From assembly GCF_005843985.1 (NCBI RefSeq), contig NZ_CP040463.1, forward strand, positions 1,290,001 to 1,354,000: a stretch of 64,000 bases of DNA, written 5' to 3'. The notes beneath the pieces were generated by a model. The model had not been told where the DNA came from. It saw only the letters and a list, made by a program, of their open reading frames with translations, and did no database searches. Shown here piece by piece: positions 21,177 through 41,663 of the stretch. Positions within the stretch are counted from its first letter, which is position 1. Every line of letters begins with the position of its first letter. Made by a program: the position numbers and the translations under genes. The stretch is from Caminibacter mediatlanticus TB-2. Lineage in GTDB: Bacteria; Campylobacterota; Campylobacteria; Campylobacterales; Nautiliaceae.

Positions 21177-21942
21177 ATAAAAATATACTTACTATATTGG
21201 TTGAAGTTAACTGAAAGACTTAAAAAAGAATTAAATATTTCGTTTCCAAACACTATGTACATTGATTAAAGATAAAGGAAATTTATTATACAAGGAGTTA
21301 AAATGAAAATAAAATTAAAAATAAATTTAAAAAAAGTGCTTGTATTGATTAAAGTGATTATTAAATACTAAACAGATAGAGAAGAACCAATTTACAAACA
21401 CTACGTGTTTCGGTTGAATCAATCTATTTGGGAAGATTTTGATAATCCATTTAAGTTTCAATACACTACATGTTTCGGTTGAATGAGTTTGCTAATAGTG
21501 TTAATTTAGGAGAAATCGTAAGTTTAAATACACTACGCGTATTGGTTAAAGATAGATAGATTAAAATTTATTTTAGAACATACTAAGTTTCCAAACACTA
21601 CGTGTATCGGTTAAAGGGAGCACAAAAAACATTGAATGATGCAATTGACAAGTTTCCAAACACTACGTGTATCGGTTAAAGATTCACTGCACTTTCCCTT
21701 GCACACTCGCTCCATCGTTTCCAAACACTACGTGTATCGGTTAAAGGGAGCACAAAAAACATTGAATGATGCAATTGACAAGTTTCCAAACACTACGTGT
21801 ATCGGTTAAAGAATATTTGCTTTACAAATAAATACAACAGGAAGTCGTTTCCAAACACTACGTGTATCGGTTAAAGATATGCCAACTACTGCATTAATAG
21901 AAACAAAAGATAGTTTCCAAACACTACGTGTATCGGTTAAAG
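21177..21942 (-). CRISPR. CRISPR array 1 (12 repeats, distal half decayed)
   Basis: Thirty-base repeats and 35-37-base spacers. On the transcribed (minus) strand the repeat begins CTTTAACCGATACAC and ends GTTTGGAAAC. Six exact copies start at 21587, 21652, 21717, 21782, 21847 and 21913. Leader-distal copies at 21522, 21455, 21390, 21325, 21242 and 21177 carry increasing numbers of changes, though the 65-base period mostly holds; one interval is 83. Spacers at 21617-21651 and 21747-21781 are identical. Copies at 21390 and 21455 have the alternative ATTCAACC end. The leader lies at the high-coordinate side, beside cas2. Confidence 0.95.
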
Positions 21943-22094
21943 GCATGAGATTTCGGGCTTTTTAAAAGGTTGGTGTCCTAATTTTAGGGATTTTCCAATC
22001 ATTTTTTAAAAAATAATAAATTTTCAAAAATCATTTTGCTTTTGCCATTATATCGAGGTTTAGAAAAAAAATCAAGAAAATGAGGTTGGAAAAA
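21943..22094 (-). promoter_or_regulatory. leader of CRISPR array 1
   Basis: About 150 bases nearly identical (reverse complement) to the leaders at 33675 and 41707. On the minus strand it has TTGATT (22075-22070), a 17-base spacer and TATAAT (22052-22047). It begins at the cas2 stop codon and ends GAAATCTCATGC against the first repeat. Confidence 0.88.
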
Positions 22095-23383
<1,289 letters not shown>

Positions 23384-23445: not shown

Positions 23446-23928
23446 TTACAAAAAACAAAACTCATAATAAGCACATTTTTTACACTGATTTTCAAATTTA
23501 GGAGTTGGCATTTTTGAGTTTATAATTTTTTTAATATCGTTTATTATTTGAAGTAGTTTTTTTTCACTCTCATCATCTAAAATAACTTCTATTTTCTTTT
23601 TATTCTGTTTTCTCTTTTCAAAAACTTCAATTCTACCTTTTTTAATAATACCTTTTTGTTTTAAAACATAAAGATAATACAAAAGCTGCCATTTTGCAGC
23701 TTCTAAATCACTATCGCTTTTTTTAACTTCAACAACATAATCTTTTGTAATCTTATCTACCTTAATGCCCTCAAAACTAACCTCATCTACCTTTTCTTCA
23801 CTAATTTCGTGCAATACTTTTCCAATTCTTACATCTTCACTATTATCTTCAAGATTTATGCGATTTGCAAATAGCCACATTTGAGTTTTACAGTGAATAT
23901 AATAATTTATAAACGTCCCACTAATCAT
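23446..23928 (-). CDS. cas4: Cas4 exonuclease
   Basis: A 160-residue RecB-like nuclease with a [4Fe-4S] cluster: C13 near the N-terminus and C149, C152, C158 at the C-terminus (CKKCAYYEFC). The nuclease core has GIKVDKI followed by VVEVKKS, then QLLYYLYVLK. Cas4 trims prespacers and helps select PAM-bearing ends. It overlaps cas3 by four bases. Confidence 0.93.
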   Translation of the reverse strand: MISGTFINYYIHCKTQMWLFANRINLEDNSEDVRIGKVLHEISEEKVDEVSFEGIKVDKITKDYVVEVKKSDSDLEAAKWQLLYYLYVLKQKGIIKKGRIEVFEKRKQNKKKIEVILDDESEKKLLQIINDIKKIINSKMPTPKFENQCKKCAYYEFCFL

Positions 23929-26213
23929 AAAAAATCATACTCCCTATTTAGTTTTTTAAAAAACTTTTCTCTATTAAACTTAAACTCTTCATCAAAAAAT
24001 TCTTCATAATCTCTAATCAAATAAATTCCACAACACTCATCATTATATTCGTCAATTTTAAGATAAATTGGAATATTGTATGTAAAAAACTGCATTAAAT
24101 AGTTTATTTTGCTTTTTAAAACCTCTTTTTTTGCAAAATTTTCAATTGAATTTAGATTTTTAAACTCTTCCCAAACCCTCTCTCCACTTAAAATATTACC
24201 TTCTACAAAATCTAAAACCTCTATTTTATACTCTCTAACATCAATATCATAAGGAAAAAATAGAGTTTGATGTTTTGTATCAATCAATTTCATCTTTTTT
24301 TTAATTTCTTTGTATTTTAAAGATTTAATCTCTTCTAAAAACTCATTATATCTACTATAACTACCCACAAACTCTAAATTTTTATTTTTTAATTTTTCTA
24401 ATATAGCTAAATAATAAGCTTCAAAATCTTTGTTGATAAAATCTTTTTGCAAATTCTTATCTTTTAAACTAAATTCAATCCTTACATCCTTATACACTTT
24501 ATATGAACTATCTTTATCAAAAAAATAAGCTATTCCTTTTGACTTAGCATTTCTATTAATTCTTCCTAAAAACTGCTCTTCTGCTTCAATTATTGAGATA
24601 TCTTTTATCCCAACATCTAAATCAATATCAACACCCGCTTCAATAACTTGTGTAGCAACAATCACTATTTTTTTAGCTTCTTTGCTTCTTTTTATTACAT
24701 AATTTCTAATTAATTTATTATCATCTCCGCTAAGTTCGTATATTTCATAACCTTCTAAATTTTCTTTTAAAAAATTATAAAATTCTCTTGCACTTTTTTT
24801 TGTAATAAACTCAACTAAAATTCTTCTATTTTGTTTAATAATTTCTAAAATTTTATTTTCATCATTTTCATCTTCTAATAAATTAAAATCACACTCAACC
24901 CTATCCTTAAAAAGTGGATTTTTAAAATATTTCTCACTTTTAATTAAACTTTTCCAATTATTTTTAGATTCTAAAAAATAATCAATCTTAGGCAAAGTAG
25001 CAGACATAATAATAAATTTAACATTCAAAACTTCACTAAATACCTCAAAAAATTCAGCCATAAACCACCAAACATTCAAATTATAACTTTGTATCTCATC
25101 AATAATAACCACCGAATTATAAAGTTGCCACAGAGGAAAATTATCTTCTTTATTTATTCCAAACAAAATATCAAAAAAATTAATATGAGTTGTAATTATT
25201 AAAGGAGAATGATAAAAAAGCCTATTTAAATAAACCTTTGTATAAAGATTTTCATCATCTTCTTCAACATCCATAGGAGTAATTGAGTTTATTACACTAA
25301 AATTTCTCCTAAAAATAGTCTCAATTACATTTTTAGTTTGTTCGACTAATGTATTAAATGGAAAAACATAAAAAATCTTAGTAGGATTTAATTTAAGTGC
25401 TAAATTTATTGAAGTTATCGTTTTTCCAGCCCCTGTTGGTGCGTGTAAATAATAAATATTTGAATTATCAATACTATTTTCTGCTTCTAAAAAAATCTCT
25501 TTTCTTAAAACATTTATACCACTAACACTTTTATTTTCTCTTATATTTTTAACTATTTCAAACTCTTCAAAATCTTTAAAAAAACTATCATCAATTTTCC
25601 CAAAATCTTCAATTTCTAAATTAGTCATATATTCAAGAGTAGCATAATAATCACTACTAATTAAAAGAGAAAATATAAACTTAATTGCTACAAATTTTTT
25701 TATATCCATATACTCTTTATCAATATTAAATTCTGCAAACTCACCTTCTAAATTTCTCTTTAATTTATCTACAAAATCACTAAATCCATCAAGTTTTGAG
25801 TGATGTTTTGAAATCAAAAAAGATAAAACTACTAAAAAAGTAAGCTTTTTATATGCTTCATCAATATCTTCTTCTCTTACAACTTCTTCAATAAATCTTT
25901 CATAAAAAAGCTTTGCACCTAAAAATGAGTGATTTGAATCTTTAATATCTAACTTCTCATACTCATCTCTAAACTCTTCATTTTTCATTTTTAAATATTG
26001 AAAAGCAGGATTACACTTTCCTTCATCGTGCAAAATAATAGCTTCTATTATTAAATTTTTTACAAACTCTCTATCTTTTATCTCAAAAACATTAGCTAAC
26101 TTATCTAAATCTATATTTTTAAATTCAATTATTCTATCTAAATACTTTTTTACTAAACTTTTATGCTCTTTAAGTTTTTCTGGGGATTTTGTGGGGTGGA
26201 TGTGGGAAAACAT
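23925..26213 (-). CDS. cas3: Cas3 HD nuclease-helicase
   Basis: A 762-residue type I effector nuclease. HD domain at the N-terminus: SHIHPTKS, H62-D63 in IILHDEGKCNPAFQ and NHSFLGAK. Helicase: Walker A LHAPTGAGKTITS near residue 258, Walker B VVIIDEIQSYN, MSATLPK, and the motif VI region EEQFLGRINRNAKSKG. It unwinds and degrades DNA recruited by the Cascade complex. Its start overlaps the stop of the SEC-C gene (TAATG). Confidence 0.97.
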   Translation of the reverse strand: MFSHIHPTKSPEKLKEHKSLVKKYLDRIIEFKNIDLDKLANVFEIKDREFVKNLIIEAIILHDEGKCNPAFQYLKMKNEEFRDEYEKLDIKDSNHSFLGAKLFYERFIEEVVREEDIDEAYKKLTFLVVLSFLISKHHSKLDGFSDFVDKLKRNLEGEFAEFNIDKEYMDIKKFVAIKFIFSLLISSDYYATLEYMTNLEIEDFGKIDDSFFKDFEEFEIVKNIRENKSVSGINVLRKEIFLEAENSIDNSNIYYLHAPTGAGKTITSINLALKLNPTKIFYVFPFNTLVEQTKNVIETIFRRNFSVINSITPMDVEEDDENLYTKVYLNRLFYHSPLIITTHINFFDILFGINKEDNFPLWQLYNSVVIIDEIQSYNLNVWWFMAEFFEVFSEVLNVKFIIMSATLPKIDYFLESKNNWKSLIKSEKYFKNPLFKDRVECDFNLLEDENDENKILEIIKQNRRILVEFITKKSAREFYNFLKENLEGYEIYELSGDDNKLIRNYVIKRSKEAKKIVIVATQVIEAGVDIDLDVGIKDISIIEAEEQFLGRINRNAKSKGIAYFFDKDSSYKVYKDVRIEFSLKDKNLQKDFINKDFEAYYLAILEKLKNKNLEFVGSYSRYNEFLEEIKSLKYKEIKKKMKLIDTKHQTLFFPYDIDVREYKIEVLDFVEGNILSGERVWEEFKNLNSIENFAKKEVLKSKINYLMQFFTYNIPIYLKIDEYNDECCGIYLIRDYEEFFDEEFKFNREKFFKKLNREYDFL

Positions 26214-28549
26214 TATTTACCACAACATTTTTTATATTTCTTTCCACTCCCACAAGGACAAAGCTCATTTCTACCAATTTTTCTTTTAACTTTTAAAGTT
26301 TGTTTTAACCGGTATTCTTTTAAACCTTCAAATTTATTTTCTATTATTTTATTAGGTTTATTATCAAAATAAAATTGTTCAAAATGTATAAAATTATTCT
26401 CAAGTATAATCACAAACCAATTATTTATTTTTCGCTCATATGCATATAATTCACATTGTTTTTTTAATAGATCGTAATTATAAATTCGTTTACTAACAAA
26501 AACTACACCTATACGGGCTTTGTCAATATGTGGATAAAAATCTGTTCTTTGAGATTTTAAAATTAATTCAATTTGTTCTTTAATTAAGTTCTGAGAATAA
26601 CAATCCAAGCTCAATAAAAATTTAGTTAGTATTGAAAAATTTTCTTTGTTTAACTCTTCTATTTGTTTAACTAAAAATTTTATATTATTTTTACAACCTT
26701 TAAAAAAAGTTGGTTTTTCAACTTTTTTATCTAATTTTCCCTCTTTCCAAAAATAATATAGGTCTATATCCTTTGAAAAACTACTATCAATAATAAGCTC
26801 AAATCCATTTTTAGGAAACTCTATATCATCAAAGTATAATCCTTCATTTAAAAAATAACCAAAAATATCTATCTCTTCAGCCATTTTAACTTGAGGGTAA
26901 TCGTTATACTTAATTCTTCTTTCAACATAAACCAAAAATTCACTTGGTAAATCAATTATTTCAGAAATAATTCTTAAATCATTTAAATAAACAGACCATA
27001 TCCATTCATCATTCTGAATAAAACCAAATTCTTTAAGAGAAGATAAGTTAGCAGTAATGTGATTTAGTGGCTCTAATGTTACATTTATCAAATATATATT
27101 ATTAATTTTTTCTCTTTTTAGTTTCAATACCGTTTTTTTACTTTTATCTCTAAATTCCACTTCTTCGTCTGACAAAATATATTTTTTTGCTCTTATTGTT
27201 TGATTATATGCTTCTTCAACAAGTTTTTTCATATTACTTTTTATTTTTTCTACATTTCCTTTTTTTGCACCTTTAGAAAATTTACCACTTTTAGCTTCAA
27301 CAATAAATATATTATTATCATATATAATTATCCCATCAACCTCATCATCAACACCATATTTTAGACTTTTATATACTTCGCAGTTAGGTAGTATTTTTTG
27401 AAATAACTCTAAAGATTTATCTTCTAAATATTCTCCTTTTTTCTTATAATAATTTTTTTGATGCTTTTTAGGTGGAATAATACTAATTATAATATTTTCA
27501 AGGATTGTATGTAGATTATAAATTATCAATGCAGGATTGAAACAATAATATTCACTATCTATTTTAATAAGTGGTTTATCATATATTAATGTATCATTTG
27601 TGGGAAAATATTCAATTTCTTCTTCTTTGTAAATTTTATTATCCCCAATCTCCATACTCAAAGCATCTAAAATTTCTTTTGGCAAAGATATTTTATGAAT
27701 TTTAAATATAGAGTCATTAAAAGACACACCGGTTTTATCATAAATGTTTTGTAATTTTTCATTAACTTTTTTTATATTTTCTGAGTCTTTATATGTTTGC
27801 ATAAATTCAATTTTTTCTTCATCATATGATATTTTCTCTAAATTTTTTATAAATTCTTGATAGGATAACATTATTTCATCAAAATATTGTTTTTGAATCT
27901 TCAAATTTTTTATAGGATATTCTGAAATATTTATTAGTTCATCAATTAGTTGTTTTGAATCTATACCATATCTATCTGTTAATATATCATCAAATTTAGA
28001 AAACAGTTCCCGACACATTTCTATTTTGTGTTCAGGATACGAATCCCCTCTTACAATCATATTATGAATAATTTGCTTAAATTTTATTTGACTTGGCTCT
28101 CCTTTATAATCAGAAGTCAATATTAGATATAATGCAGCATTATTTTTTAGATCCTCTATATTTTTATCTATTCGATTTAATATTTCTTCACTACACTCTT
28201 TTTGATTCAAATTTCCTACTGCAGAAACAAGACTATGAATATAGTCTAATTTAAAATTTTTTTCACTATCTAAATCTTCTTCAATTTTGTCAGGAGTAGT
28301 TAAACCATAAAATGCACCAAAATAATCTAAAATTTGTTTTGCATCACAACTTTGAATATCTTTTATTAATAAATTTATAATTTCTTTAATTTTAGATTCA
28401 AGTTCAGGTATATTTTCTTTTAACTGTTCTTGCAATTTCATTTGCTCTACTTCTCCTATTTCGGAAGTATTCATACTTCTCATTTTGCTTGTTATTCTTT
28501 CTATATACTCTTTGAATGGATCTTCTTTTTTTGGTAATTTTATTATCAT
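26213..28549 (-). CDS. SEC-C motif protein with PD-(D/E)XK nuclease-like domain inside the cas operon
   Basis: A 778-residue protein not part of the usual type I-B set. Residues 1-350 are mostly helical with no recognised domain. Residues about 372-440 carry a restriction-endonuclease-like core: GEYLEDK, then D405 in EVDGIIIYD and E418-x-K420 in FIVEAKSGKFSKG. A beta-rich region follows, and the protein ends with a SEC-C zinc motif, GRNELCPCGSGKKYKKCCGK. It sits between cas5 (12-base gap) and cas3 (one-base overlap), on the same strand, so it is made with Cascade. A nucleic-acid cleaving accessory or a stand-alone defence protein are both possible. Function unknown. Confidence 0.85.
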   Translation of the reverse strand: MIIKLPKKEDPFKEYIERITSKMRSMNTSEIGEVEQMKLQEQLKENIPELESKIKEIINLLIKDIQSCDAKQILDYFGAFYGLTTPDKIEEDLDSEKNFKLDYIHSLVSAVGNLNQKECSEEILNRIDKNIEDLKNNAALYLILTSDYKGEPSQIKFKQIIHNMIVRGDSYPEHKIEMCRELFSKFDDILTDRYGIDSKQLIDELINISEYPIKNLKIQKQYFDEIMLSYQEFIKNLEKISYDEEKIEFMQTYKDSENIKKVNEKLQNIYDKTGVSFNDSIFKIHKISLPKEILDALSMEIGDNKIYKEEEIEYFPTNDTLIYDKPLIKIDSEYYCFNPALIIYNLHTILENIIISIIPPKKHQKNYYKKKGEYLEDKSLELFQKILPNCEVYKSLKYGVDDEVDGIIIYDNNIFIVEAKSGKFSKGAKKGNVEKIKSNMKKLVEEAYNQTIRAKKYILSDEEVEFRDKSKKTVLKLKREKINNIYLINVTLEPLNHITANLSSLKEFGFIQNDEWIWSVYLNDLRIISEIIDLPSEFLVYVERRIKYNDYPQVKMAEEIDIFGYFLNEGLYFDDIEFPKNGFELIIDSSFSKDIDLYYFWKEGKLDKKVEKPTFFKGCKNNIKFLVKQIEELNKENFSILTKFLLSLDCYSQNLIKEQIELILKSQRTDFYPHIDKARIGVVFVSKRIYNYDLLKKQCELYAYERKINNWFVIILENNFIHFEQFYFDNKPNKIIENKFEGLKEYRLKQTLKVKRKIGRNELCPCGSGKKYKKCCGK

Positions 28550-28561
28550 TGTTTATTCCTT

Positions 28562-29262
28562 TCATCCATACCAAACTCCTTTCTCATCATATTCCCACAT
28601 CTCATCACTATCAATTATACCACTGCTTAATACCATTTTATCCATCTCATACATTAAAAACTTCTTTTTCATCCCAATAGGCAAATACTCTTCATAAAAA
28701 TATACTCTTCCAAACATAGGTTGTTTTAATGATTTGATTTTGCTTTTAGGAATTAATGATTTGCAAACCATAGGTTTTGTAGCTTTTTTAAGTTCAATTT
28801 CTTTAATATCGCTAATGTTTGCAAAATGGTCATTCTTCCCAAGATATGGAATATAAACACACTCTTTATTAAAAAGTTTTTCTCTTAATTTATTAAATTC
28901 ATCACTTCCATTATCTAAAACTAAAATCTCCCAAGATGGATTTTCAAGCCATTGTTCTTTAACGACTAAATTTCCACCTTGTTCTTTACTTGCGTATCCT
29001 ACTGAGTTGTTAAAAGTTATTATTTTTTTTGAAAACATAACTTCTTTTGGAATAATTGATACTTTTATATGTTTTAGTCTTTTATAAAATTCTGGATAAT
29101 CTTTAATATCTTTATTATATCCATCAAGTCCTAAAATTGCCCCAAAAATACCAAGAAGTGCAATTTTATGAATATGAGAATATGTAAAATAGACATTACT
29201 ATTAACATCTGGCTTTTTAAAATGTGCAAATTTACCGCTTAAATTAAAACTTATTGCTTTCA

Positions 29263-29263
<1 letters not shown>
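28562..29263 (-). CDS. cas5: Cas5, type I-B (Csh-type)
   Basis: A 233-residue RAMP protein that caps the crRNA 5' handle in Cascade. The N-terminus AISFNLSGKFAHFKKPDVNSNVYFTYSHIHKIALLGIFGAILGLDG is typical of Cas5h. It overlaps the cas7 stop by one base. Confidence 0.93.
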
Positions 29264-30144
<881 letters not shown>

Positions 30145-31323
30145 TTAACTCCTTATTTTTAAAATGAATCTATTAAAAGGACTTTCATTAACACATATGA
30201 AACATTTATCTTCTTCTATAACATCTAAAAAAATACTAAAACTTGGATGATTATATTTATTATATTTTCCAGCATTTGCAATCCAAAAATAACAATTTTT
30301 TATATCTTGTAATAAATTTTTATTCCAATTTGATTTTGCTCCATGATGAGGAATTTGAAATACACATACTTCTTTTAAATAATTTTTATAATGATTTTTA
30401 AATTCTTTATAGTTTTTGTTAGCTTTAAGGTTTATATCTCCTGTTAAAATTTGTGCAAAACTCTTATTTTCTAACATAAGTTTTTTACCATATGGCACAA
30501 AACATGTCCGATAACAAATTTTATATTTATAAGGAAAATAATTATAAAAAATTTCATAATTATCTATTTTAACTAATGGTTTATGTAACATTACAAGAGA
30601 AGTGTCATTAAAATTACCTTTAATTTTTTTATAACATTGTTTTAAATATTCAACTGTTTTTTTATCAGAAAGATCTACTTTCTTAATATCAAGTTTTTTA
30701 TCTAATATACAATCTTTAAACTCTTTTAAATCTTTTTTTAAACAAAAAAATCTAAACATCCAATATTTAATTTTAATATCTCCCTTATCTGATTTATGAT
30801 TACCCTCTAAACTTTCTTCATTATTTACATTGCCCAAATTTATTTGAAGTTCAAAATTATCATTATCTTCAACATTAGGTATATCATCCTCTCCATTATG
30901 ATTAGAAGGATGAATATAGTATATGTTATTTTTATTTATACCATATTCAATTAAAAAATTAGTAGGATCTTGTAAAAACTCTAAGTACCAATGATTATTT
31001 TTTGCAAAAGATAAATTTTTAGTTAATATATATAATCTTTCAATTTCTGTAAAATATGGTAAGAAAACATACTTAGGTTTATTTTTTTTAAGCAAATATT
31101 CTAAGCCATTAATATGGTCCTTATGAAAATGTGAAATTACTAACATATCAGTGTTTTTTTCATTTAAGTAATTTAAATAATCGTCAATTACACATTTTAT
31201 ATATTCTTCACTTCCACCACAATCATAGATAAAACTAAATTTATTATTTTTATACTTGATAAGTCCACTATAAAATAATCCTTGTCCAACATTATGAAAG
31301 ACAAATTTACCAAGTAAACTCAT
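30145..31323 (-). CDS. MBL-fold metallohydrolase (ComEC-like catalytic domain) inside the cas operon
   Basis: A 392-residue soluble protein, not a known type I-B component. The metal-binding signature SHFHKDHINGLEYLL gives H65, H67, D69 and H70; later LTGDINLK and IPHHGAKSNWN match the ComEC-type metallo-beta-lactamase arrangement, and NHPSF follows near the end. No membrane segment or signal. Its start overlaps the cas8b stop by four bases and its stop is three bases from the cas7 start, so it is translated within the Cascade genes. Likely a nuclease or phosphodiesterase; substrate unknown. Confidence 0.88.
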   Translation of the reverse strand: MSLLGKFVFHNVGQGLFYSGLIKYKNNKFSFIYDCGGSEEYIKCVIDDYLNYLNEKNTDMLVISHFHKDHINGLEYLLKKNKPKYVFLPYFTEIERLYILTKNLSFAKNNHWYLEFLQDPTNFLIEYGINKNNIYYIHPSNHNGEDDIPNVEDNDNFELQINLGNVNNEESLEGNHKSDKGDIKIKYWMFRFFCLKKDLKEFKDCILDKKLDIKKVDLSDKKTVEYLKQCYKKIKGNFNDTSLVMLHKPLVKIDNYEIFYNYFPYKYKICYRTCFVPYGKKLMLENKSFAQILTGDINLKANKNYKEFKNHYKNYLKEVCVFQIPHHGAKSNWNKNLLQDIKNCYFWIANAGKYNKYNHPSFSIFLDVIEEDKCFICVNESPFNRFILKIRS

Positions 31324-32936
31324 TTTTCATCCTTTTTATAGAATATATTATCAGCTAAAATTCCAACTAACAGCTTATCTCTTTTAACCCTATCACATTC
31401 AAAGCTTTCAACTAATGCAAGTGCATTATTAAACTTCCTGTAATTTAAAGGAATCTCGTGTTTATAGTTAAAAAACAAGCTCTCTATTTCTTCTTTTAGT
31501 TTTTTAACTTTCCCTGCTCTTAAAAATGGCTCAATCATATCAGCTCTTTTTTCACTTTTTTTACTTTTATCAAGCAAATATTTAATTATTTGCCCAGCTA
31601 AAATAAAAAACTCATCTTCATTTAACTCTTCTAAATTTTCAATTTTTTCTTCAATATTTTTTAAACTATTTTTAATATCCATCCTCTCTCCTTCATATTC
31701 TAAAATTGATAATTTTAAATTCAAAGATTGTTGTGCTTTTTTTAATCTATTTTCTTTTAAATGCCACAAAATAAAATCATCAGCATATTTTTTATTAACC
31801 TTAAAAAGTGGTTTTATCTCACCTTTTTTTAGAGCTTTCATAGCATCACGAGTAAGATAAAAAAGAGTTTGTACTTTATGAGGTAATTTATTCCACACAT
31901 CTGAATATAACGATAAAGTTTTGTTATAAAAAATTTCATTTATTTTTTCATATAAAAGACTATATCTCTCTATCTTTTCATCTTCCCCATCTTTTGATAA
32001 AAAATCTTTGTATATAAACTCAGGATAAATTCTATCTTCACTCACAACAATATCAAAATCAACAATTTCAGCCACATCATTATTATTTTCTTTATAAACA
32101 TAAATCCCGCTTTTATTATTTTTAGCTTCTTTATTAAAATCTCTAACATACTTTAAAAAATCAAAAAGTTTTTTATGTAAAATTATTTCATCTTTTTCAA
32201 CTAAAAAAGGCAATTCAAACCCTCTTGTTTTATGAGCTAAAAATGGCTTTTTTGCATTTAATCCAACATTAAAATCACTAAGTCCATAAATTTTATTATC
32301 TATTTTATATGTATATTCGATTTTGTTATAAATTTTTAAAGCATAATAAATTTTTGCTTCATTTTCATACTTTTTAATATCTTCATCAAAAAATATTTTA
32401 ATATACTCATTTTCTTTAATTAGTTCTTTTTTATTTTTAATTTCTTCAAAGACTTTTAAAAATCTGTTTTTTTTAATTTCTACATCTTTTTGTCTTTTTT
32501 CATCAAAAATATAATCTTTAAAATCTTCTAAAACTTCTTTTTCTTTTTTCTTATTAAAACTTTTAAAATCTATTAAATTTTCATAAAGTTTTTCAATAAA
32601 ATAATCTTTATTTTCATCATTAAATTCTTTTGCTTTACAAAATAAAGTAAGGTAATTATTATTATGAATTCTCTTTTTAGGAGGGTCAATTGATTTATTT
32701 GAATTTAAATAATTGCTTATATAATCTCTTTTACAAAACCACTCATACATTTGAGAAGCTATATTATCTTCTAAATCAGTTAAACACATCTTTTTATCAC
32801 AATCTTTTTTAAATTTATACTTATAAAATTCTATATTATCGCCAATTTTCACATATAGCCCATCTTTAAGTTTATAGTTATCAATTATTGCTTTATCTAA
32901 ATCAAAATCAATCTTTTCTAAAATATCTCTAATCAT
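31320..32936 (-). CDS. cas8b: Cas8b large subunit, type I-B (Csh1)
   Basis: A 538-residue large Cascade subunit when started at ATG 32936, which has GGAG six bases upstream; a TTG at 32954 is possible. It has the Csh1-like pattern of a lysine/aspartate-rich body and a helical C-terminal part (ENRLKKAQQSLNLKLSILEYEGERMD ... EDEFFILAGQIIKYLLDKSKK). It recognises the PAM in type I-B. It overlaps the end of cas6. Confidence 0.85.
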   Translation of the reverse strand: MIRDILEKIDFDLDKAIIDNYKLKDGLYVKIGDNIEFYKYKFKKDCDKKMCLTDLEDNIASQMYEWFCKRDYISNYLNSNKSIDPPKKRIHNNNYLTLFCKAKEFNDENKDYFIEKLYENLIDFKSFNKKKEKEVLEDFKDYIFDEKRQKDVEIKKNRFLKVFEEIKNKKELIKENEYIKIFFDEDIKKYENEAKIYYALKIYNKIEYTYKIDNKIYGLSDFNVGLNAKKPFLAHKTRGFELPFLVEKDEIILHKKLFDFLKYVRDFNKEAKNNKSGIYVYKENNNDVAEIVDFDIVVSEDRIYPEFIYKDFLSKDGEDEKIERYSLLYEKINEIFYNKTLSLYSDVWNKLPHKVQTLFYLTRDAMKALKKGEIKPLFKVNKKYADDFILWHLKENRLKKAQQSLNLKLSILEYEGERMDIKNSLKNIEEKIENLEELNEDEFFILAGQIIKYLLDKSKKSEKRADMIEPFLRAGKVKKLKEEIESLFFNYKHEIPLNYRKFNNALALVESFECDRVKRDKLLVGILADNIFYKKDEK

Positions 32937-33633
32937 CCTCATCTCCAAAATCAACTGATTTTATTTCTTTTAAAAATCCTCCCCCAATTAAAGCATTTTT
33001 CTCTCCAAGTCCATATCCAAATCCAACAAAAGAAAGTTTCTTAGCAATCTCGTTATCTTTAATACTTGCAATTATTTTATTTCCAAAAAAATCTTTATCT
33101 TTATATCTTACTTTAAATGGCTTTTTATTTTTAAATTTTAAATATCCAATAAAATCAGCCTTTGTAACATTTTCACCGGATATAAAGTTATATTTTTTTA
33201 TCAAATTATTAGTTAATCTATCAATAAACAATAAAATATCTCCGCTCTCTTTATATGTCCAAAAGCGATTATTTTTAAGAGTTACAAACACTGGATTTAA
33301 AGTAATAAAATTTTTATATTCTCTAAATTTTACTTCTCTAAATTTAATACCCTCAACTCTTAAAAACTTATCTTCCCACATAATACTACTAACAAGCAAA
33401 TCAATATATTTTTTATCAAAACTTCTAAAAATAAAATTAGTTTTACCCTCATAATATCCGTCTTTTGGATTATTAAAATTTGAAAAAACATACTTAAATT
33501 TATTTTCAAGATGTGAAGTGTCACCTTTACTCATAAAATATGAAGCTAAAAATTTCGATATCACTTCAAGTGAAGACTTATGATAAATTCTATGCTTTAA
33601 TTCAACATCAATTTTTAATTCAAAATATCTCAT
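32929..33633 (-). CDS. cas6: Cas6 crRNA endonuclease
   Basis: A 234-residue RAMP endoribonuclease that cuts repeat RNA. The C-terminal glycine-rich loop FVGFGYGLGEKNALIGGGF is the family hallmark; the N-terminal ferredoxin fold begins MRYFELKIDVELKHRIYHKS, with a histidine suited to catalysis. It is the first gene of the type I-B operon and the only cas6 in the window, so it should also process RNA for the type III operon. Confidence 0.92.
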   Translation of the reverse strand: MRYFELKIDVELKHRIYHKSSLEVISKFLASYFMSKGDTSHLENKFKYVFSNFNNPKDGYYEGKTNFIFRSFDKKYIDLLVSSIMWEDKFLRVEGIKFREVKFREYKNFITLNPVFVTLKNNRFWTYKESGDILLFIDRLTNNLIKKYNFISGENVTKADFIGYLKFKNKKPFKVRYKDKDFFGNKIIASIKDNEIAKKLSFVGFGYGLGEKNALIGGGFLKEIKSVDFGDEDD

Positions 33634-33674: not shown

Positions 33675-33825
33675 TTTTTCCAACCTACTTTTCTTGATTT
33701 TTTTTCTAAACCTCGATATAATGGCAAAAGCAAAGTGATTTTTGAAAATTTATTGTTTTTTAGAAATGGTTGGAAAATCCCTAAAATTAGGACACCAATC
33801 TTTTAAAAAGCCCAAAATCTTATGT
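33675..33825 (+). promoter_or_regulatory. leader of CRISPR array 2
   Basis: Near copy of the leaders at 21943 (reverse strand) and 41707. Contains TTGATT (33694-33699), 17-base spacer, TATAAT (33717-33722). It ends AAAATCTTATGT before the first repeat, differing from the CTCATGC ending of the other two leaders. It lies between the divergent cas6 operon and the array. Confidence 0.88.
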
Positions 33826-34513
33826 ATTCAACCGATACACGCAGTGTTTGGAAACCATAAAACAATATAATTAACTTGATTAGTAAAATGATTCAACCGA
33901 TACACGTAGTGTTTGGAAACATCATAGCAATTGATGCTAACTCTTTTTCAGTGTTTATTCAACCGATACACGTAGTGTTTGGAAACTAAATATTAGGCAT
34001 TTCTATTCCTTTTTTATAAAAATTCAACCGATACACGTAGTGTTTGGAAACTTTAAAGTTGCCATATTAGCTCCTCTTAGCCTTCGTATTCAACCGATAC
34101 ACGTAGTGTTTGGAAACTTATACCCTTATTGTACAAATGTTAAAAAATATGTTATTCAACCGATACACGTAGTGTTTGGAAACTCGTAATTTAATATATT
34201 TTTTGTTAAATTATTTCTTATTCAACCGATACACGTAGTGTTTGGAAACTTATCTAGTTTAGGTTCTAGGTAATCGAATAACGCATATTCAACCGATACA
34301 CGTAGTGTTTGGAAACTTTTTATCATCTTTAAATAAAGAATAATTTAAAATAAATTCAACCGATACACGTAGTGTTTGGAAACTAGATTGTATGGATGGT
34401 AATGTTAAGAAAAAGTCATTCAACCGATACACGTAGTGTTTGGAAACAGCATTTAATCTACTGCCTTTTTGTAATCTTAATTTCTTCAAGCAATACACAT
34501 TGTGTTTGTAAAA
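33826..34513 (+). CRISPR. CRISPR array 2 (11 repeats, 10 spacers)
   Basis: Repeats begin ATTCAACCGATACACG and end GTTTGGAAAC. Starts: 33826, 33891, 33957, 34022, 34088, 34154, 34220, 34287, 34354, 34418 and a degenerate last copy at 34484. The first, newest repeat has CGCAG where the others have CGTAG. Spacers are 34-37 bases. The 130 bases after it (34514-34643) are A+T-rich and hold no gene I can see. Confidence 0.96.
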
Positions 34514-34643: not shown

Positions 34644-35360
34644 TCACTCTAAAAGCTTACTTCCAGTAGTAATATAATATTCTGCATTTTTTATTATTTT
34701 TTGCCCTTGTGTAAAATCAAATTCTGGTAATATTTCTAATTCTCCTTCAAATTTTTGATTATTAAATTTTAAATAGTTTTTAAGTGGATTTTTATAATTA
34801 TTGGTTTGATAAATTCCTTTTATAAGGTTGCAGTTATAATTTTTCTCTTTAATACTTTCCAATTTCATCAATCCAAATCCATATCTTACATCACCACCAA
34901 TATATATCTTTTTTATTTCATCTAAATACTCTTTTTTGCAGTTTATATATCCAACCCACTCTCCAACCCACTCTATATTATTTGGATATATTAAATCTAT
35001 CTCATGTAAACTTTCATCTTTTGCATTAAGAGAGGTTGGATTAATTGCAGTAGATGTAAAGCTTTTTACATATTTTTGTCTAAACTCACTTTCACTCATG
35101 TCGCCAAGATAAAGTTCCCCATTTTTATAACTTGGATATAATACTTTTCCATCTATTTTTGGATAAAAACACGATATTTCTTCGAATATATGCTCACTAT
35201 GTTTACCTGTTATTTTAAAATACTCATTTGTCAAAGCACCCCACATTGTAATACCTGGAATAAAAATGCGAGTCTCATTTACAACACCCCAACCACCTTG
35301 CCCAATATTAATTGGCTCAATTTGTTTAAAAGTTAGCTCAAACCATTTATTATCACTCAT
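34644..35360 (-). CDS. Cas5-group RAMP protein of the type III operon (Cmr3/Csx10-like)
   Basis: A 238-residue protein if started at ATG 35360 (a GTG six bases earlier is possible). It has the Cas5-type N-terminus FELTFKQIEPINIGQGGWGV, a loop with FIPGITMWGALTNEYFK resembling the P-G-S-x-hhGAL pattern, and a C-terminal glycine-rich stretch IGGDVRYGFGLMKL. In type III complexes this subunit holds the crRNA 5' end next to Cas10. It overlaps the cmr5 end by eight bases and is the last gene of the operon. Confidence 0.72.
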   Translation of the reverse strand: MSDNKWFELTFKQIEPINIGQGGWGVVNETRIFIPGITMWGALTNEYFKITGKHSEHIFEEISCFYPKIDGKVLYPSYKNGELYLGDMSESEFRQKYVKSFTSTAINPTSLNAKDESLHEIDLIYPNNIEWVGEWVGYINCKKEYLDEIKKIYIGGDVRYGFGLMKLESIKEKNYNCNLIKGIYQTNNYKNPLKNYLKFNNQKFEGELEILPEFDFTQGQKIIKNAEYYITTGSKLLE

Positions 35361-35715
35361 TTTCACTCACTTTTAATGCTTTTGCGTGGTATCTTGCATA
35401 AATTAAAGCTTTTTCAAGAATCTCTTTAAAAAATAGAAGTTGATGTATATCGTTTGAGAGATTTCTAAAAAACTCTTCATCATCTGCATTTTCAATATTT
35501 ACAAATTCTTTTAGTTTTTCTATTTTCTTAATAAAAATATCATCAATTTTATTTGCTTTACAATAAACCCAATAAACATACACTCCATCATTAGCTAATA
35601 CACCAAGAGATTTATCTATATAGTTTTTATACTTTGTTCGTTCTTTATCTTTGTTCTTAATTGATTCAACTATTTCAAACCCAACTTCATTAATAATTGC
35701 ATCAAGATTCTTCAT
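35353..35715 (-). CDS. cmr5: Cmr5-like small subunit (Cas11 group)
   Basis: A 120-residue all-helical protein (LDAIINEVGFEIVESIKNKDKERTKYKNYIDKSLGVLANDGVYVYWVYCKA ... ALIYARYHAKAL). Pattern, size and position match Cmr5, which lines the inner face of the type III-B/C complex. ATG 35715 has GGAG upstream. Confidence 0.82.
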   Translation of the reverse strand: MKNLDAIINEVGFEIVESIKNKDKERTKYKNYIDKSLGVLANDGVYVYWVYCKANKIDDIFIKKIEKLKEFVNIENADDEEFFRNLSNDIHQLLFFKEILEKALIYARYHAKALKVSENE

Positions 35716-35724
35716 TTTACTCTC

Positions 35725-36708
35725 CTATTTTAAATCAATTTTTAACCTACCAAATCCTCTTGTTGTCATTCCACCAATTCCAAGAGTTTCATAGTAGTGT
35801 TTTGTATCATCAAGAGCATTAAATACTAAATTTAGATCTGGTAAGTCATTATCTACTCTTTTGAATCCTCTAATTTCACCTTTAAATATAGTTCCCCTTG
35901 GAATAGCCTCACTTGTAAATAAAGCACCCTCTTTTGCAGCACCAGTAATAGGGTCTATTGAAACAGAGGTTCTAACTTCTAAATTTGAATTAATTATTTG
36001 AGAAATTAAACTATCTGGAACAATTACAATATCTTCTTTTTTGAAATCTAAATTATTTAAATCTAAATCTTTTTTTATAGGTCCCCTAACTTCTAAATTA
36101 AGCCATCCAAGATTTAAATAACCTTCACTCCCATTAGCAGTTAAGATTGTATTGTCTTCAATTTCAAAATTTTCATTAAGTAGTTTTGGTGATGTAATCC
36201 ATTTCGTTCCAAGTCTTGTATATACTGGAAAATATAATATGTTTAAATCACTAAAAAATAGCATTCCTTGATTTGAAATATCTTTTTTAGCAAACCCAAA
36301 ACCTTTACAAACTATACATCTCCCACAATGTCCAGTATTACTCATTTTTGAATCTTCAAAAGTTTTATTAGCTTGATCATCTTGCCCTGCACACTTTATT
36401 CTTGCATATCTATTGCCATCAAACTCTTTCATCCAATCTTTTGGATTCTCAAATAAATCTTCTAAACTTTTATCTTTTCTTTTTTGTAAATCTTTTTTAT
36501 ATTCATCTTTAAATTTACTTTGTAACTCCATAGCTACATAATATCTCCATGTCCCAGCCAAACTGCTTCCTGGAATTTTTGGAATATATGTTATAGGGTC
36601 TCTTACAATTGTATTATCAACTCTACCAATTGTATATCCACCAGTGCCAATATATATTGGGTCCGTTGCTATTGCACAAATCACTTTTTCAACTACATTA
36701 TTATTCAT
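35725..36708 (-). CDS. cmr4: Cmr4-like Cas7 backbone RNase
   Basis: A 327-residue RAMP backbone protein. The N-terminus DPIYIGTGGYTIGRVDNTIVRDP carries the aspartate that cleaves target RNA in Cmr4/Csm3. KIPGSSLAGTWRYYV and QGMLFFSDLNILYFPVYTRLGTKWITSP are typical Cmr4 segments. A four-cysteine/histidine patch (HCGRCIVCKG) may bind zinc. AAAGGAGAT precedes the start, inside the end of the cas10 frame. Confidence 0.88.
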   Translation of the reverse strand: MNNNVVEKVICAIATDPIYIGTGGYTIGRVDNTIVRDPITYIPKIPGSSLAGTWRYYVAMELQSKFKDEYKKDLQKRKDKSLEDLFENPKDWMKEFDGNRYARIKCAGQDDQANKTFEDSKMSNTGHCGRCIVCKGFGFAKKDISNQGMLFFSDLNILYFPVYTRLGTKWITSPKLLNENFEIEDNTILTANGSEGYLNLGWLNLEVRGPIKKDLDLNNLDFKKEDIVIVPDSLISQIINSNLEVRTSVSIDPITGAAKEGALFTSEAIPRGTIFKGEIRGFKRVDNDLPDLNLVFNALDDTKHYYETLGIGGMTTRGFGRLKIDLK

Positions 36709-36709
36709 T

Positions 36710-39700
36710 TTATATCTCCTTTAAAGTTGTATGATAATAATCAAACATATCTAAAAATTTTTTCATTTCATTAAAGCCATAATCTTTAATACCAAATTGT
36801 TGTATATCAATTTCATTTTGCTTAAAAGTGCTTTTCATAAACATTTTAAAACTTTCTTCATTATCTTTCCAATCTTGGATTTTTGAATATATTAAACTAA
36901 CAAGTCTGTGCATTAAAGCTGTTTTATTTTTAAAAAACTCTTTAAAATTTTCAAAATATTCAAACTCTTCCCAAGTATATGGTCTATTAGATTTTAAATG
37001 TAAATTTATTTTATCTTGGTTATCATATGATTCTAAAAATAACTTTCTTTTTCCTTTCACATAATAAATATCATTTTTTCTTGAATTACTATCTAAAAAT
37101 TCAAAATCAATTGTATTTGGATATATTATAAATTCATCACTTTGATTATATTTTTTTACCCCTTTTTTACTTGGCAAATTATAAAAAGGATAATCATTAT
37201 TTTCGCACTCATAAAGCCAATAATAATCTTTCGCATTATTGTTTTGTTCTACAATTTCTTCATAACACTCTAAATTTGGAAGTAAATTTCTACCCTCCAC
37301 TTTAATATCTTCCCAAATTTTAATATCTCGTCTTATTTTTCTTAATGCTTTAATCCCAATATATAATGGAAATTTAGAGTTTTGAACAACAATACCTATA
37401 TGTAGAGGTAATTTTCCATATACATATTTAAACTCTTTTTTATATAAATGCTGAATTTTTTTTATAGCATCATTAACTTTATTTGTTGGTAAAATAAATT
37501 GCCAAGAGATAGGAGTAGGGTCAATTATGGATAAATATTGTTTATATTCATCTTCTTTAATTTTATCTTTTAAATGTTCAAAATCAGGTATCTTTTTTGC
37601 AAAACCTTCTTTTGTTCTATAACCTTTGTAACTATCTAAAATTTCACTCTTAACTCTATTAAAAAACTCATAAGTAGTATCCCAAATTCTTCTTAATCAT
37701 GCAGGTGATGGATTTTTTCTTAATATAAATTGTAAAAGTATTTTTGATAATACTTCAATATCATTCTCAGTTAAATTATTCCAATATATTTTCCTATTTT
37801 CAAAATTTATTTTTTGTTTTTTAGGTTCATTATTTTGAATATCCCAATCATTTAATTGTTTATAAATAAATTCTTCCCACTTTTGACCAATAGAACGTTC
37901 TAATAAAGTGTTATAAACTTGGTACATAAAATAATTAAGGATAAAAATTTTATACAAATGAGTTTTTACCCCATCGTCTTCTATATATTCATTTAGCTTA
38001 ACTTTTTTGCCCTTTTTTTTGTTTTTAATAATTTCGTTAGTTGCAGAGTTATAAAAAGAATAGTATTCCTTAATCCAATTAGGAGCCAATAAATTCTTAG
38101 TTAAATCTCGCCAACCTCTTTCGTTAGATACATTATTTAAGTTTTTATGTTCTTTTAATACATTTTTCATGGTTTTAAATGGCTCATAAATACCACTTCT
38201 ATCATAAAGTTCAAAAAATTTTTCAAATGTCTTTTCATCATTATCAGTGATATTTAGTGATTTTACATCTTGACTTTTTAGGTTTTTAATTAATATATTG
38301 AAGGCTGACATTATTTCATTTTTATATTCTTCAAAGCTTTCATTTCGAACCAACAAACTATTCAACAAATCCCCATTTAACCATTCACTAAGCTCAAACT
38401 TTAATGTAACTAATGCAACTCTGTTATTATCATCTGCGAGTTCATCTATCCAAATTGTTTCATCTTTTTGATTTTTTAACCACTTATCTAATCTTCCTTT
38501 TGTTTTATTTTCATAACAAAATCCACATATATTTTTATCTTCATCTTTTTTATCAATGTTATAAACTATTCTTGTTTTACAAACTTGACAAACCCCAATA
38601 GGATATTTATTCTCATCAAATTCCAGGCATAAATTTTTATTTTTTAAACTAAAATCTTGTTTTAAAAAATTCTCTTTTGCTTGTTCTAAAAGTGTTGTTA
38701 AATTCATTAAACCTCTTGATGATTTACTTAATACAAAACTTGGATAAAATTCATCATCAGTTTTATTTTTAAAAATTTTTAAAATCTCTTTTTTTAGCTT
38801 ATTAGATAATTCAAAATCTTCAACAACTATAAAATATACTCCTGTTTCATCTTTGTATATCTCATTTCCAATAGGATATTTTATTTCTAATAAATCTTGT
38901 ATTTCTTTATCTATTTCTCTTGAAATATCTCTATACCACATTATTTGTGATGGTTTATATCCTTTTTCAGCTAAACCTAATTTATCATATTGAATACCAA
39001 GTATTCTCCATTTTATACTTGAAGGATTATTTTGATAACTACTTAACTTAGAGTTATCAATAACAAGTTGCGATAAAACAGCTTTAAACATAGAAGCTGT
39101 CATATATGCTTGGTCAAAAAGAGATACATCATTAACAGGAAATCTATTATCACTCAAAAGATGTGAATACCACTTTTTTATTTCTTTTAAAATAAAATTT
39201 CTGATTTCTTGCCAATTTGGGTTTTGATAATAATTATTATCTTGCAAGAAAAAATTTAGTTTACAAAAAAAATTATTTCTTGCATCATCAAAATATGTTT
39301 CGTCTATTTCTTCCTTATAACTTCCAAAAGCATTAGAAAGCCAAAGTTTATATTTTAATTGTTCTTTTGGTGAGCCTTTATCTATTCCAGAGTTTATATT
39401 TTCACATCCTCTAAAAAATACTTTTTGTATAAAATTCTCATTAGAAGCATCACCTTTAAAAAATTCTATCCAATCTATTTTTTTACTATCACTAATTTTT
39501 ACTTGTTTATTAATAATAAAATCTTTTAAATCTTGAGAGATACTTTCTAATTCATTTTCAAATATATTATTTTGATAGTAATTTTTATAACTACTAAATT
39601 GACTTTGAAAATTATTAAAATAGTCTTTCCAATTACCTATTCCTATATGAGTTTTTCCCAAATTAAAGAGTAAAGCTCCTATTTCTGCTTTTAAAATTTC

Positions 39701-39742
39701 ATCTCTATATTGTTTTAATTTTTCTAAATCTAATCTTGACAT
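36710..39742 (-). pseudogene. cas10-like gene (Csx11 type) interrupted by one in-frame TGA
   Basis: Two open stretches, 37697-39742 and 36710-37300, lie in exactly the same frame and the 396 bases between them are also open. The only interruption is TGA at 37697-37699, so the full product would be 1010 residues with the stop after residue 681. Around it the frame reads NPSPA-stop-LRRIWDTTYEF; a CGA arginine codon would restore a smooth sequence. A zinc-finger pair (CQVCKTR and CGFC) lies near residue 390. There is no GGDD cyclase motif and the N-terminal HD position reads LFNLGKTH, so both Cas10 catalytic centres look lost, as described for Csx11/type III-C. The start is placed at ATG 39742, seven bases after AAGGA. 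Confidence 0.8.
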
Positions 39743-40656
39743 TTTTTCCATCCTTCTGGAATTTGAAATTCACTGTTTAAACAAACCTTTTTATCTTCAT
39801 CCAAAATATCAAACCTTCCCCAACCAAGTTTTGTTTTAGCTCCAAGGCCATTTTGAGATAATTTTTCAATACATTTAGTTAAAAACTCTAAATCTTTTTT
39901 TGCTTCTTTTTGAATTTTTTTATCATCTTCTAAAATTGCATCAAAAGGAATATAGATAATTTGTAAAGTGCTTTTGCAACCTTTTGGCACTACTTCATAA
40001 TATATTGGATTTGTTCCTGCTTTTGTTTTTCTATTGTGTGGGTTTATTACTTCAAGAGATAATTTATCAAAATATATTGGATAAAATATAGCTCTTCCTT
40101 TTTGAGCTTTTGATTGTTTATATCTCTCAAAAGCTTCTTTTAAACTTTCATTAGGATTTATTCCAATCTCAAAAGCTAAAAATAGTTGCAGTTGATTTAT
40201 GTCAATTCCTTCTTTTTTGAAAATAGCTCTAAATGTATCATTGCCAACACCAAAAATTCTAAAAAAGCTTTTTAAATTTTCTATATTAACCTCTTCTTTT
40301 AAAATCTCTATTGCATTGTGTAACAGTGCACCTTTTATACTACTACCTCTAATCATAGGAACTTTGAAAGCTTTATCTTTTAACATAGGATTTGAAATAA
40401 TATAGAATTCATCATCATCTTTTGAATATAGAGGTGCTGTAAGTTTTAAAGTTACTTCAATACCAAAAGAATTTGGAATTGATTTTTGGATTAAATTTTC
40501 TATATCTATTTTTAGATGTTCAATATATCTCAAATTACCAAATCTATACTCTTTTGGCAATTGTTTTAAAATATTTAATTTATTATTTAATCCATATTTT
40601 AATTTAGAAAAAGAATCATTGTTGTAATTTAGACAATATTCATAATTTTGATTCAT
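39730..40656 (-). CDS. Cmr6-like Cas7-group RAMP protein
   Basis: A 308-residue RAMP protein with KVPMIRGSSIKGALLHNAIEIL, GRAIFYPIYFDKLSLEVINPHNRKTKAGTNPIYYEVVPKG and the C-terminal glycine-rich GLGAKTKLGWGRFD. The GRAIFYP...INPH pattern and position between cmr1 and cas10 fit a Cmr6-type terminal backbone subunit. ATG follows GGAG inside the end of cmr1; its end overlaps cas10 by 13 bases. Confidence 0.75.
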   Translation of the reverse strand: MNQNYEYCLNYNNDSFSKLKYGLNNKLNILKQLPKEYRFGNLRYIEHLKIDIENLIQKSIPNSFGIEVTLKLTAPLYSKDDDEFYIISNPMLKDKAFKVPMIRGSSIKGALLHNAIEILKEEVNIENLKSFFRIFGVGNDTFRAIFKKEGIDINQLQLFLAFEIGINPNESLKEAFERYKQSKAQKGRAIFYPIYFDKLSLEVINPHNRKTKAGTNPIYYEVVPKGCKSTLQIIYIPFDAILEDDKKIQKEAKKDLEFLTKCIEKLSQNGLGAKTKLGWGRFDILDEDKKVCLNSEFQIPEGWKKCQD

Positions 40657-41663
40657 TTTTTAGCTCCAATATTTTGAATTCCCCAAATTGATAAAAATTG
40701 CCCATTATAAATTTTAGTTGATTTATTAAAAGAGATTAAAGGAATTATCTTTGTAGCATTCGGACCTTTTATTTCAAGGTTATACCTTTTATTTTTATAT
40801 ATATCTTTTGCTATAGAACCAAATTTATAATGCCTAATAAACTTATTACTTTCAAATCTTCTTAATTTGACTTTTTTTGAGAGTAAATTTTTTATACAAT
40901 CATTCAAATTATTACACTTTTTAATATTAAATACTTCTATTGCTTTATAATTTAATCTATTTAATTCATCTGGTAAATCTTTTTCTTGGAAAATTGAGTT
41001 AGTTATTTTATTATTAACACCTATACAATTTAAATCTATTTCATTATTTTCAATAGTAGGTTCAATTATTTTAACTCTGCCATATCCTATGTTATTCTTT
41101 GCTCCTATAAAACCATATCTTTCAATAAATTTTAATAATGGCAATAATATATTTTCTCCAACTTCATTTAATACATTAAAAGTAATACGAAATTTTCCAA
41201 AAAAACCCTTTTTAAAATACCAAGATGGGATTATAGTTTTGTTTTGCTTGTTATATTCTAATTTCTCTAAACTAATTTTTCCAAGTGGATAGATATATTC
41301 ATATTCATCTATCTTTATTACTTTTTTAATCTCTATTCTACTCTTCCAACCAGTGCAGCCAAAAATTTTAGAAGTTGTAGTAAGAGGTAAATTTTTTATA
41401 ATGTACTCTTCTATATCTGATATTTCTTTATCTTTATATTTATATTTTTCAAAAGTTTTGTTTCGAATTTTTTCAAAAGTTTTATAATCTAAACTTTCAT
41501 TCTCTTTTACTTCAATACCTGCAAAATAGCAATATACTTCAAACCAAAATCTTAAACTTCCAAATATTGAAGCTGGTTTAAGCTCTGTACATTCTCCATT
41601 TATATCACCTGTCCATAAAGGTGTAACTGTTTCAAATGTAACTGTTAATTCTTTTTTACCCAT
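40653..41663 (-). CDS. cmr1: Cmr1-like Cas7-group RAMP protein
   Basis: A 336-residue protein starting MGKKELTVTFETVTPLWTGDINGE, then PASIFGSLRFWFEVYCYFAG, SKIFGCTGWKSRIEI and IERYGFIGAKNNIGYGRVKI, all typical of Cmr1, which caps the 3' end of the crRNA complex. First gene of the type III operon. ATG 41663 follows AAGGAT. It is divergent from leader 3. Confidence 0.88.
   Translation of the reverse strand: MGKKELTVTFETVTPLWTGDINGECTELKPASIFGSLRFWFEVYCYFAGIEVKENESLDYKTFEKIRNKTFEKYKYKDKEISDIEEYIIKNLPLTTTSKIFGCTGWKSRIEIKKVIKIDEYEYIYPLGKISLEKLEYNKQNKTIIPSWYFKKGFFGKFRITFNVLNEVGENILLPLLKFIERYGFIGAKNNIGYGRVKIIEPTIENNEIDLNCIGVNNKITNSIFQEKDLPDELNRLNYKAIEVFNIKKCNNLNDCIKNLLSKKVKLRRFESNKFIRHYKFGSIAKDIYKNKRYNLEIKGPNATKIIPLISFNKSTKIYNGQFLSIWGIQNIGAKK

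Follow-up and report, generated by a model that had tools for sequence, protein, structure and literature searches.

Among the described relatives of the protein studied here are the MBL nucleases of Hachiman, AVAST, and canu, which were presented in a 2025 paper as pro-enzymes. In that paper's models, the active site appears to lie beneath a pair of disordered insertions. A partner protease cuts these insertions, at I118 and I218 in HamM and at I134 and I234 in Avs1a, and the freed enzyme degrades DNA (PMC12799240). Coupled immunity and suicide genes have also been proposed in general, with PrrC of type Ic R-M systems as the example that has been studied (PMC3506569), and a nested toxin-antitoxin module, CreTA, has been described within a CRISPR-Cas locus (PMC12737573), so the general idea of coupling is already known. 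For PrrC, an anticodon nuclease, control by the Hsd complex has been demonstrated.

The DNA analysed, hereafter the window, is a stretch of 64,000 nucleotides from Caminibacter mediatlanticus TB-2 (contig NZ_CP040463.1, positions 1,290,001 to 1,354,000), in which a type I-B cas operon carries a gene for a ComEC-like MBL-fold protein. With the gated MBL pro-nucleases of PMC12799240 (Hachiman HamM, AVAST Avs1a, Lamassu, DRT, and canu CanC), this protein shares the ComEC-like fold, metal motifs that are intact, two disordered insertions at comparable places, and mobility between unrelated immune systems. It differs from them in its host, as the hosts listed in the main text of that paper do not include a type I-B operon, and in its partner, as the pro-nucleases described there have a trypsin- or caspase-like protease and none was found for the window protein. 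The recently described DNase family shared by unrelated immune systems is hereby extended to type I-B, without the usual protease. A literature search with partial coverage returned no report of such an MBL in type I-B, and the papers searched contained no description of an MBL gene in an I-B operon that lacks a protease.

The type I-B operon and the position of the MBL gene

The operon is located on the minus strand and was recognized in family scans as type I-B of the HMARI kind with CRISPR arrays. The order of transcription is cas6, cas8b, MBL, cas7, cas5, a NERD/SEC-C gene, cas3, cas4, cas1, and cas2, and the set cas6b-cas8b-cas7b-cas5b-cas3-cas4-cas1b-cas2 is complete. The first gene, cas6b (32929..33633, E = 1e-41), is followed by cas8b (31320..32954), which was assigned by the PADLOC Cas8b profile (E = 1e-128) and by orthologues. 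Downstream of the MBL gene are cas7b (29263..30141; family-scan E = 2e-37, Pfam Cas_Cas7 E = 2e-35), cas5b of the I-B/HMARI kind (28562..29263, E = 2e-46), cas3 coding for an HD nuclease-helicase (23925..26213, E = 1e-219), cas4 (23446..23928, family scans), cas1b (22391..23383, E = 1e-118), and cas2 (22095..22394), the last being assigned by position and orthologues. A CRISPR array with the repeat ATTCAACCGATACACGTAGTGTTTGGAAAC (33813..34453) precedes the operon. With the TTG start as listed, cas8b overlaps cas6 by 26 bases (32929-32954); homologues point to an ATG about six codons further in as the likely true start.

The MBL gene (30145..31323, minus strand) is an ORF of 392 aa with an ATG start, and its product is a predicted DNase. 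Its start overlaps the stop of cas8b by four bases in the sequence ATGA (31320-31323, minus strand), and three bases (30142-30144) separate it from cas7; in relatives, cas8b and cas7 overlap directly at the equivalent place. As read from the sequence, the gene is thus inserted exactly at a coupled stop-start junction. Because of this precise placement, it has the same orientation as the Cascade genes, is probably translated along with them, and leaves them undisrupted. No terminator-like site was found across 28.0-34.7 kb, a scan that counts as weak evidence. The ORF, its location, the overlap, and the gap had all been given correctly in the original prediction, and the coupling of the MBL start to cas8b that it proposed is borne out by the ATGA overlap.

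A second non-cas gene and thus a second piece of cargo in the operon, overlooked by that prediction, is situated between cas5 and cas3 (26213..28549, minus strand). The encoded NERD-like protein of 778 aa has a conserved DDEVDG...EAK, which is a PD-(D/E)XK nuclease signature, and SEC-C at its C-terminus; no convincing peptidase match was obtained for it. Its only full-length relative among 200 genomes of the order (50%) belongs to an island that is rich in transposases and has no cas genes (L156); plasmids carry relatives that are more distant. No RNA families were identified by Rfam at 20-45 kb of the window.

Fold, motifs, and extra loops of the MBL protein

The metal-binding motif SHFHKDH is intact (H65, H67, D69, and H70). 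Residues D34, H65, D69, H70, D296, H326, H327, and H359 are invariant among 23 to 25 homologues, and many of these have D at the position of H67 in the alignment, giving the HxDxDH form as in ComEC; H67 is one of the residues for which the original prediction had suggested substitutions. Pfam Lactamase_B was matched with 30 bits, above the cutoff of 22.7. The best NCBIfam scores, those of ComEC_Rec2 (E = 2e-14) and Avs1a (NF041809, E = 2e-11), are both far under the curated cutoffs, with 52.9 vs. 190 bits and 43 vs. 420 bits, respectively. The protein was accordingly not assigned to the Avs1a family, and, being free-standing with 392 aa, not to the ComEC/Rec2 competence membrane proteins either. 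PADLOC families LmuA (1e-13), RTasMBL (3e-12), PDC-M48B (7e-12), and Avs1a (2e-8) were matched, and the same four recur across 23 family members, PDC-M48B in 23 out of 23. PDC-M48B is a candidate defence family given without mechanism in PADLOC.

The AlphaFold2 model, computed on an alignment without two plasmid-derived rows, has a mean pLDDT of 81 and pTM of 0.85. The ComEC MBL domain (9ic4) is its best match in PDB (E = 7e-13, TM 0.72 over the target), and several ComEC structures were matched in the profile search. By sequence, the protein is a ComEC-like MBL from a defence-associated family, and it is a probable DNA-cutting enzyme judging from sequence and model. Motif, Lactamase_B, ComEC_Rec2, model, and 9ic4 agree with the ComEC-like metallohydrolase with intact HxHxDH that had been proposed, and the nuclease, one of the functions offered for it, is the most likely. 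By structure as well as by profile, the protein matches ComEC DNases best, and not MBLs that cleave signals.

Cas14 of type VII, a beta-CASP-type enzyme, is also a nuclease with the MBL fold, and its gene accompanies cas5 and cas7. Assignment to type VII was rejected, as Cas14 is only weakly similar (Foldseek E = 4e-3, profile E = 0.04) and the operon in the window has complete cas8b and cas3, whereas type VII has neither cas8 nor cas3.

The catalytic core and motifs are those of the ComEC MBL domain (9ic4), but the window protein is free-standing, has no membrane channel, and contains about 140 extra residues in two regions. Three anchors could be placed against 9ic4 in the profile alignment: the block from HxHxDH to Pro, the N-x-x-SL block, and the HHG block. 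As read from this alignment, the first and second anchors are about 145 residues apart in the MBL protein vs. 49 in ComEC, and the second and third about 71 vs. 29. The extra loops, at approximately residues 142-179 and 261-279, are variable, not conserved across the family, and of low model confidence, with low-confidence stretches at 142-157, 163-179, and 261-279. Their places are comparable to those of the cut loops of HamM and Avs1a; relative to ComEC, the protein has two disordered insertions, as do the gated pro-nucleases. Based on the model and on this analogy, the MBL protein is probably gated by the two loops. No trypsin-like protease was detected by motif scan in the window or around the homologues, and no peptidase family was found in the I-B operon by Pfam and motif scan, in which caspase-like partners were searched less closely. 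With no partner protease found, the usual gate-opening step is missing or different for this protein.

Cargo in related type I-B operons

Cas8b orthologues are present in 24 out of 399 genomes of the order, and the 22 I-B loci with a readable gene after cas8b were compared. Profile libraries were applied to representatives, while the HEPN/MNT, GNAT-RHH, L052, and other Septu assignments were read from sequences. The MBL gene is in one operon out of 22, that of the window. The slot between cas8b and cas7 is empty in 15 operons and filled in seven: by MBL in the window, by a Septu-like PtuA-PtuB pair in four (L042, L043, L047, and L050; PtuB E = 4e-36 for L047), and by HEPN/MNT-type genes in two (L037 and L051). 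The PtuA of the four Septu-like pairs carries an extra N-terminal domain. In locus L038 from the same family, the match to the cas8b end (4430-4731) adjoins the match to the cas7 start (4733-5034), whereas the equivalent flanks in the window are about 1.2 kb apart; L038 is therefore a clean empty site.

One or more non-cas genes are located between cas6 and cas1 in at least 16 of the 22 operons, a minimum count because several contigs are truncated. These embedded genes are mostly defence or toxin genes. Slots other than cas8b/cas7 contain a UG13 reverse transcriptase, a YhcG nuclease, and a PIN protein (L035), HsdM-HsdS with an OLD-like ATPase (L038), a SIR2-STAND protein (L040), PD-T4-5-like proteins (L044 and L052), Fic (L045 and L050), ParE (L043), and a GNAT-RHH pair (L054). 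In L038 (6327-12471), hsdM-hsdS, a 347-aa gene, and the OLD-like ATPase gene are inserted between cas5 and cas3, and no hsdR was seen between the cas genes flanking hsdM-hsdS. Two sets of I-B effector genes are arranged in tandem on the single contig of L045. No report of Septu or UG13 within I-B operons was found in the literature search of partial coverage.

Variable cargo in the same slots is evident from the gene orders of relatives, and the interior of the I-B operon, as these predicted genes show it, is a cargo site for interchangeable defence genes, which the operons of these bacteria carry at stop-start junctions. MBL as a core type I-B component was rejected (one out of 22 operons in the order and none of nine further Aquificota loci); the earlier statement that it is outside known I-B sets holds, as none of the 21 related operons has it.

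The second case is locus L069 of a Persephonella MAG (Aquificota), with an MBL homologue inside an I-B operon of the TNEAP kind. The gene order is cas6 (7e-70), a gene for a large subunit that has the place of Cas8 but no match in the library, cas7 (1e-30), cas5 (1e-22), DUF6236, MBL, and a cas3-like gene, so the homologue occupies the cas5/cas3 slot and not the cas8b/cas7 slot of the window. Among relatives of L069 with Cas7 identity of 81 to 98%, the cas5/cas3 slot is empty in L191 and L195 and filled by a 290-aa gene in L192 and L193, by a pair of 664- and 207-aa genes in L194, and by a 291-aa gene in L197. MBL is absent from all nine further Aquificota loci around the Cas7 relatives of L069. 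The differing slots of L069 and its relatives represent the same loading pattern in a second phylum and I-B subtype, and the recurrence of a predicted MBL gene in a second I-B lineage is clear. Identity between the MBLs of the two I-B operons is 38%. A 17-row tree pairs them as sisters with support of 89/78, which is below the threshold, and the placement of the window MBL was not resolved in a 27-row tree; a sister relationship is suggested, weakly, by these sequences.

Homologues elsewhere and the possible role of the MBL protein

Scanning of genomes with the family alignment revealed 28 homologous loci, and all searches together about 33 distinct ones. Only two of these (the window and L069) are among cas genes. 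Type I R-M loci hold five homologues (L070, L078, L087, L091, and L095), with the order hsdM-hsdS-MBL-hsdR in L095. Homologues adjoin OLD-family ATPases in a Bacteroidales MAG and in Thermococcales (L068, L072, and L232); that of L060 adjoins Fic and a ParE-like gene, and copies in L059 and L233 are alone. On the plasmids examined, no cas genes are near MBL relatives. Viral contigs gave no MBL match in a single-protein scan, and phage records gave one weak partial match. A Thermococcales module (L232:9122-12957; L234) consists of the MBL homologue, a large methylase-like gene, an OLD ATPase gene, and a small downstream gene; the MBL copies of L234 and L072 are interrupted.

The rarity of homologues near cas genes argues against a dedicated Cas function, yet fits a mobile defence nuclease. 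The original prediction named homologues almost never near cas genes as a finding that would count against it; two of about 33 loci comes close to this, and with none of the 21 related operons carrying MBL and many of them holding another defence gene in the same slots, a role as dedicated partner of Cascade was not upheld. The explanation that we favour, and hold to be probable though well short of secure, is that the MBL gene is captured cargo and codes for a ComEC-type DNase from a mobile defence family, which is probably gated and serves as a backup effector co-expressed with Cascade. The type I-B operon would have captured the gene at the cas8b/cas7 junction. The extra loops, both of which lie after the first metal motif and before the HHG motif, would hold the enzyme in an inactive state, as happens in HamM, Avs1a, and CanC, until it is freed by a cue from infection or because the primary CRISPR response has failed. 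Once free, the enzyme would degrade DNA and bring the infected cell to a halt. It would be made together with Cascade but not as its subunit. DNase activity, loop gating, and use as a backup effector are in this proposal what fold, loops, and gene order suggest.

Control of the MBL protein by Cascade is possible, and the alternative that survives best, though rather unlikely, is an effector or guard that the I-B complex holds inactive or releases. Release would come on target binding or on anti-CRISPR inhibition, like that of PrrC held by type Ic R-M; PrrC is likewise a toxic effector encoded inside the operon of a primary immune system. Beside this precedent (PMC3506569), a guard is favoured by the ATGA coupling to cas8b, the five homologues in type I R-M loci, and the grouping of MBLs from I-B operons of different subtype and phylum. 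However, the support of this grouping (89/78) is under the usual threshold, the slots differ (cas8b/cas7 and cas5/cas3), the 21 related I-B operons are without MBL and many have unrelated cargo, and most homologues have no cas genes nearby. The more specific version, in which I-B systems of two phyla use a ComEC-like DNase that is made alongside Cascade and has the I-B complex itself, not a protease, as its gate, seems doubtful; such gating would make it a CRISPR-controlled or anti-CRISPR-triggered suicide nuclease.

It is improbable that the gene is a passenger, that is, a mobile gene, defensive or selfish, that landed where it is tolerated and well expressed and has no functional link to CRISPR. 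Highly variable cargo in the same slots, toxin-antitoxin-like pairs included, and homologues on plasmids and alone are in line with it, but the exact stop-start junctions, the kept orientation, and the predominance of defence genes in the cargo suggest selection for co-expression. A neutral passenger would be expected to look much the same as the favoured captured backup effector. The natural empty, filled, and swapped sites are material for testing the coupling of immunity and suicide through co-expression.

A nucleotide-signal phosphodiesterase or immunity brake, Apyc1-like or ring-nuclease-like, is highly improbable: Apyc1 belongs to the MBL superfamily (weak profile match, E = 1e-4) and a type III locus is next door, but structure and profile group the protein with ComEC DNases, the Cas10 next to it, of the III-C kind, has no GGDD cyclase motif, which also disfavours a ring nuclease for the adjacent system, and the I-B operon of the Persephonella copy is without a type III gene on the examined contig. 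Nothing was found in favour of the phosphodiesterase or the autoimmunity brake that had been considered at the outset. The type III module itself (34644-41663, minus strand), of Cmr/III-C kind, consists of Cmr1, Cmr4, Cmr6, and the Cas10 without GGDD, and is flanked by two CRISPR arrays, the repeats of which differ by a few bases. A further repeat-spacer tract (21231-21947) is located downstream of cas2 in an orientation inverse to the other arrays; several of its repeats are decayed, and one spacer is present twice (at about 21618-21651 and 21748-21781).
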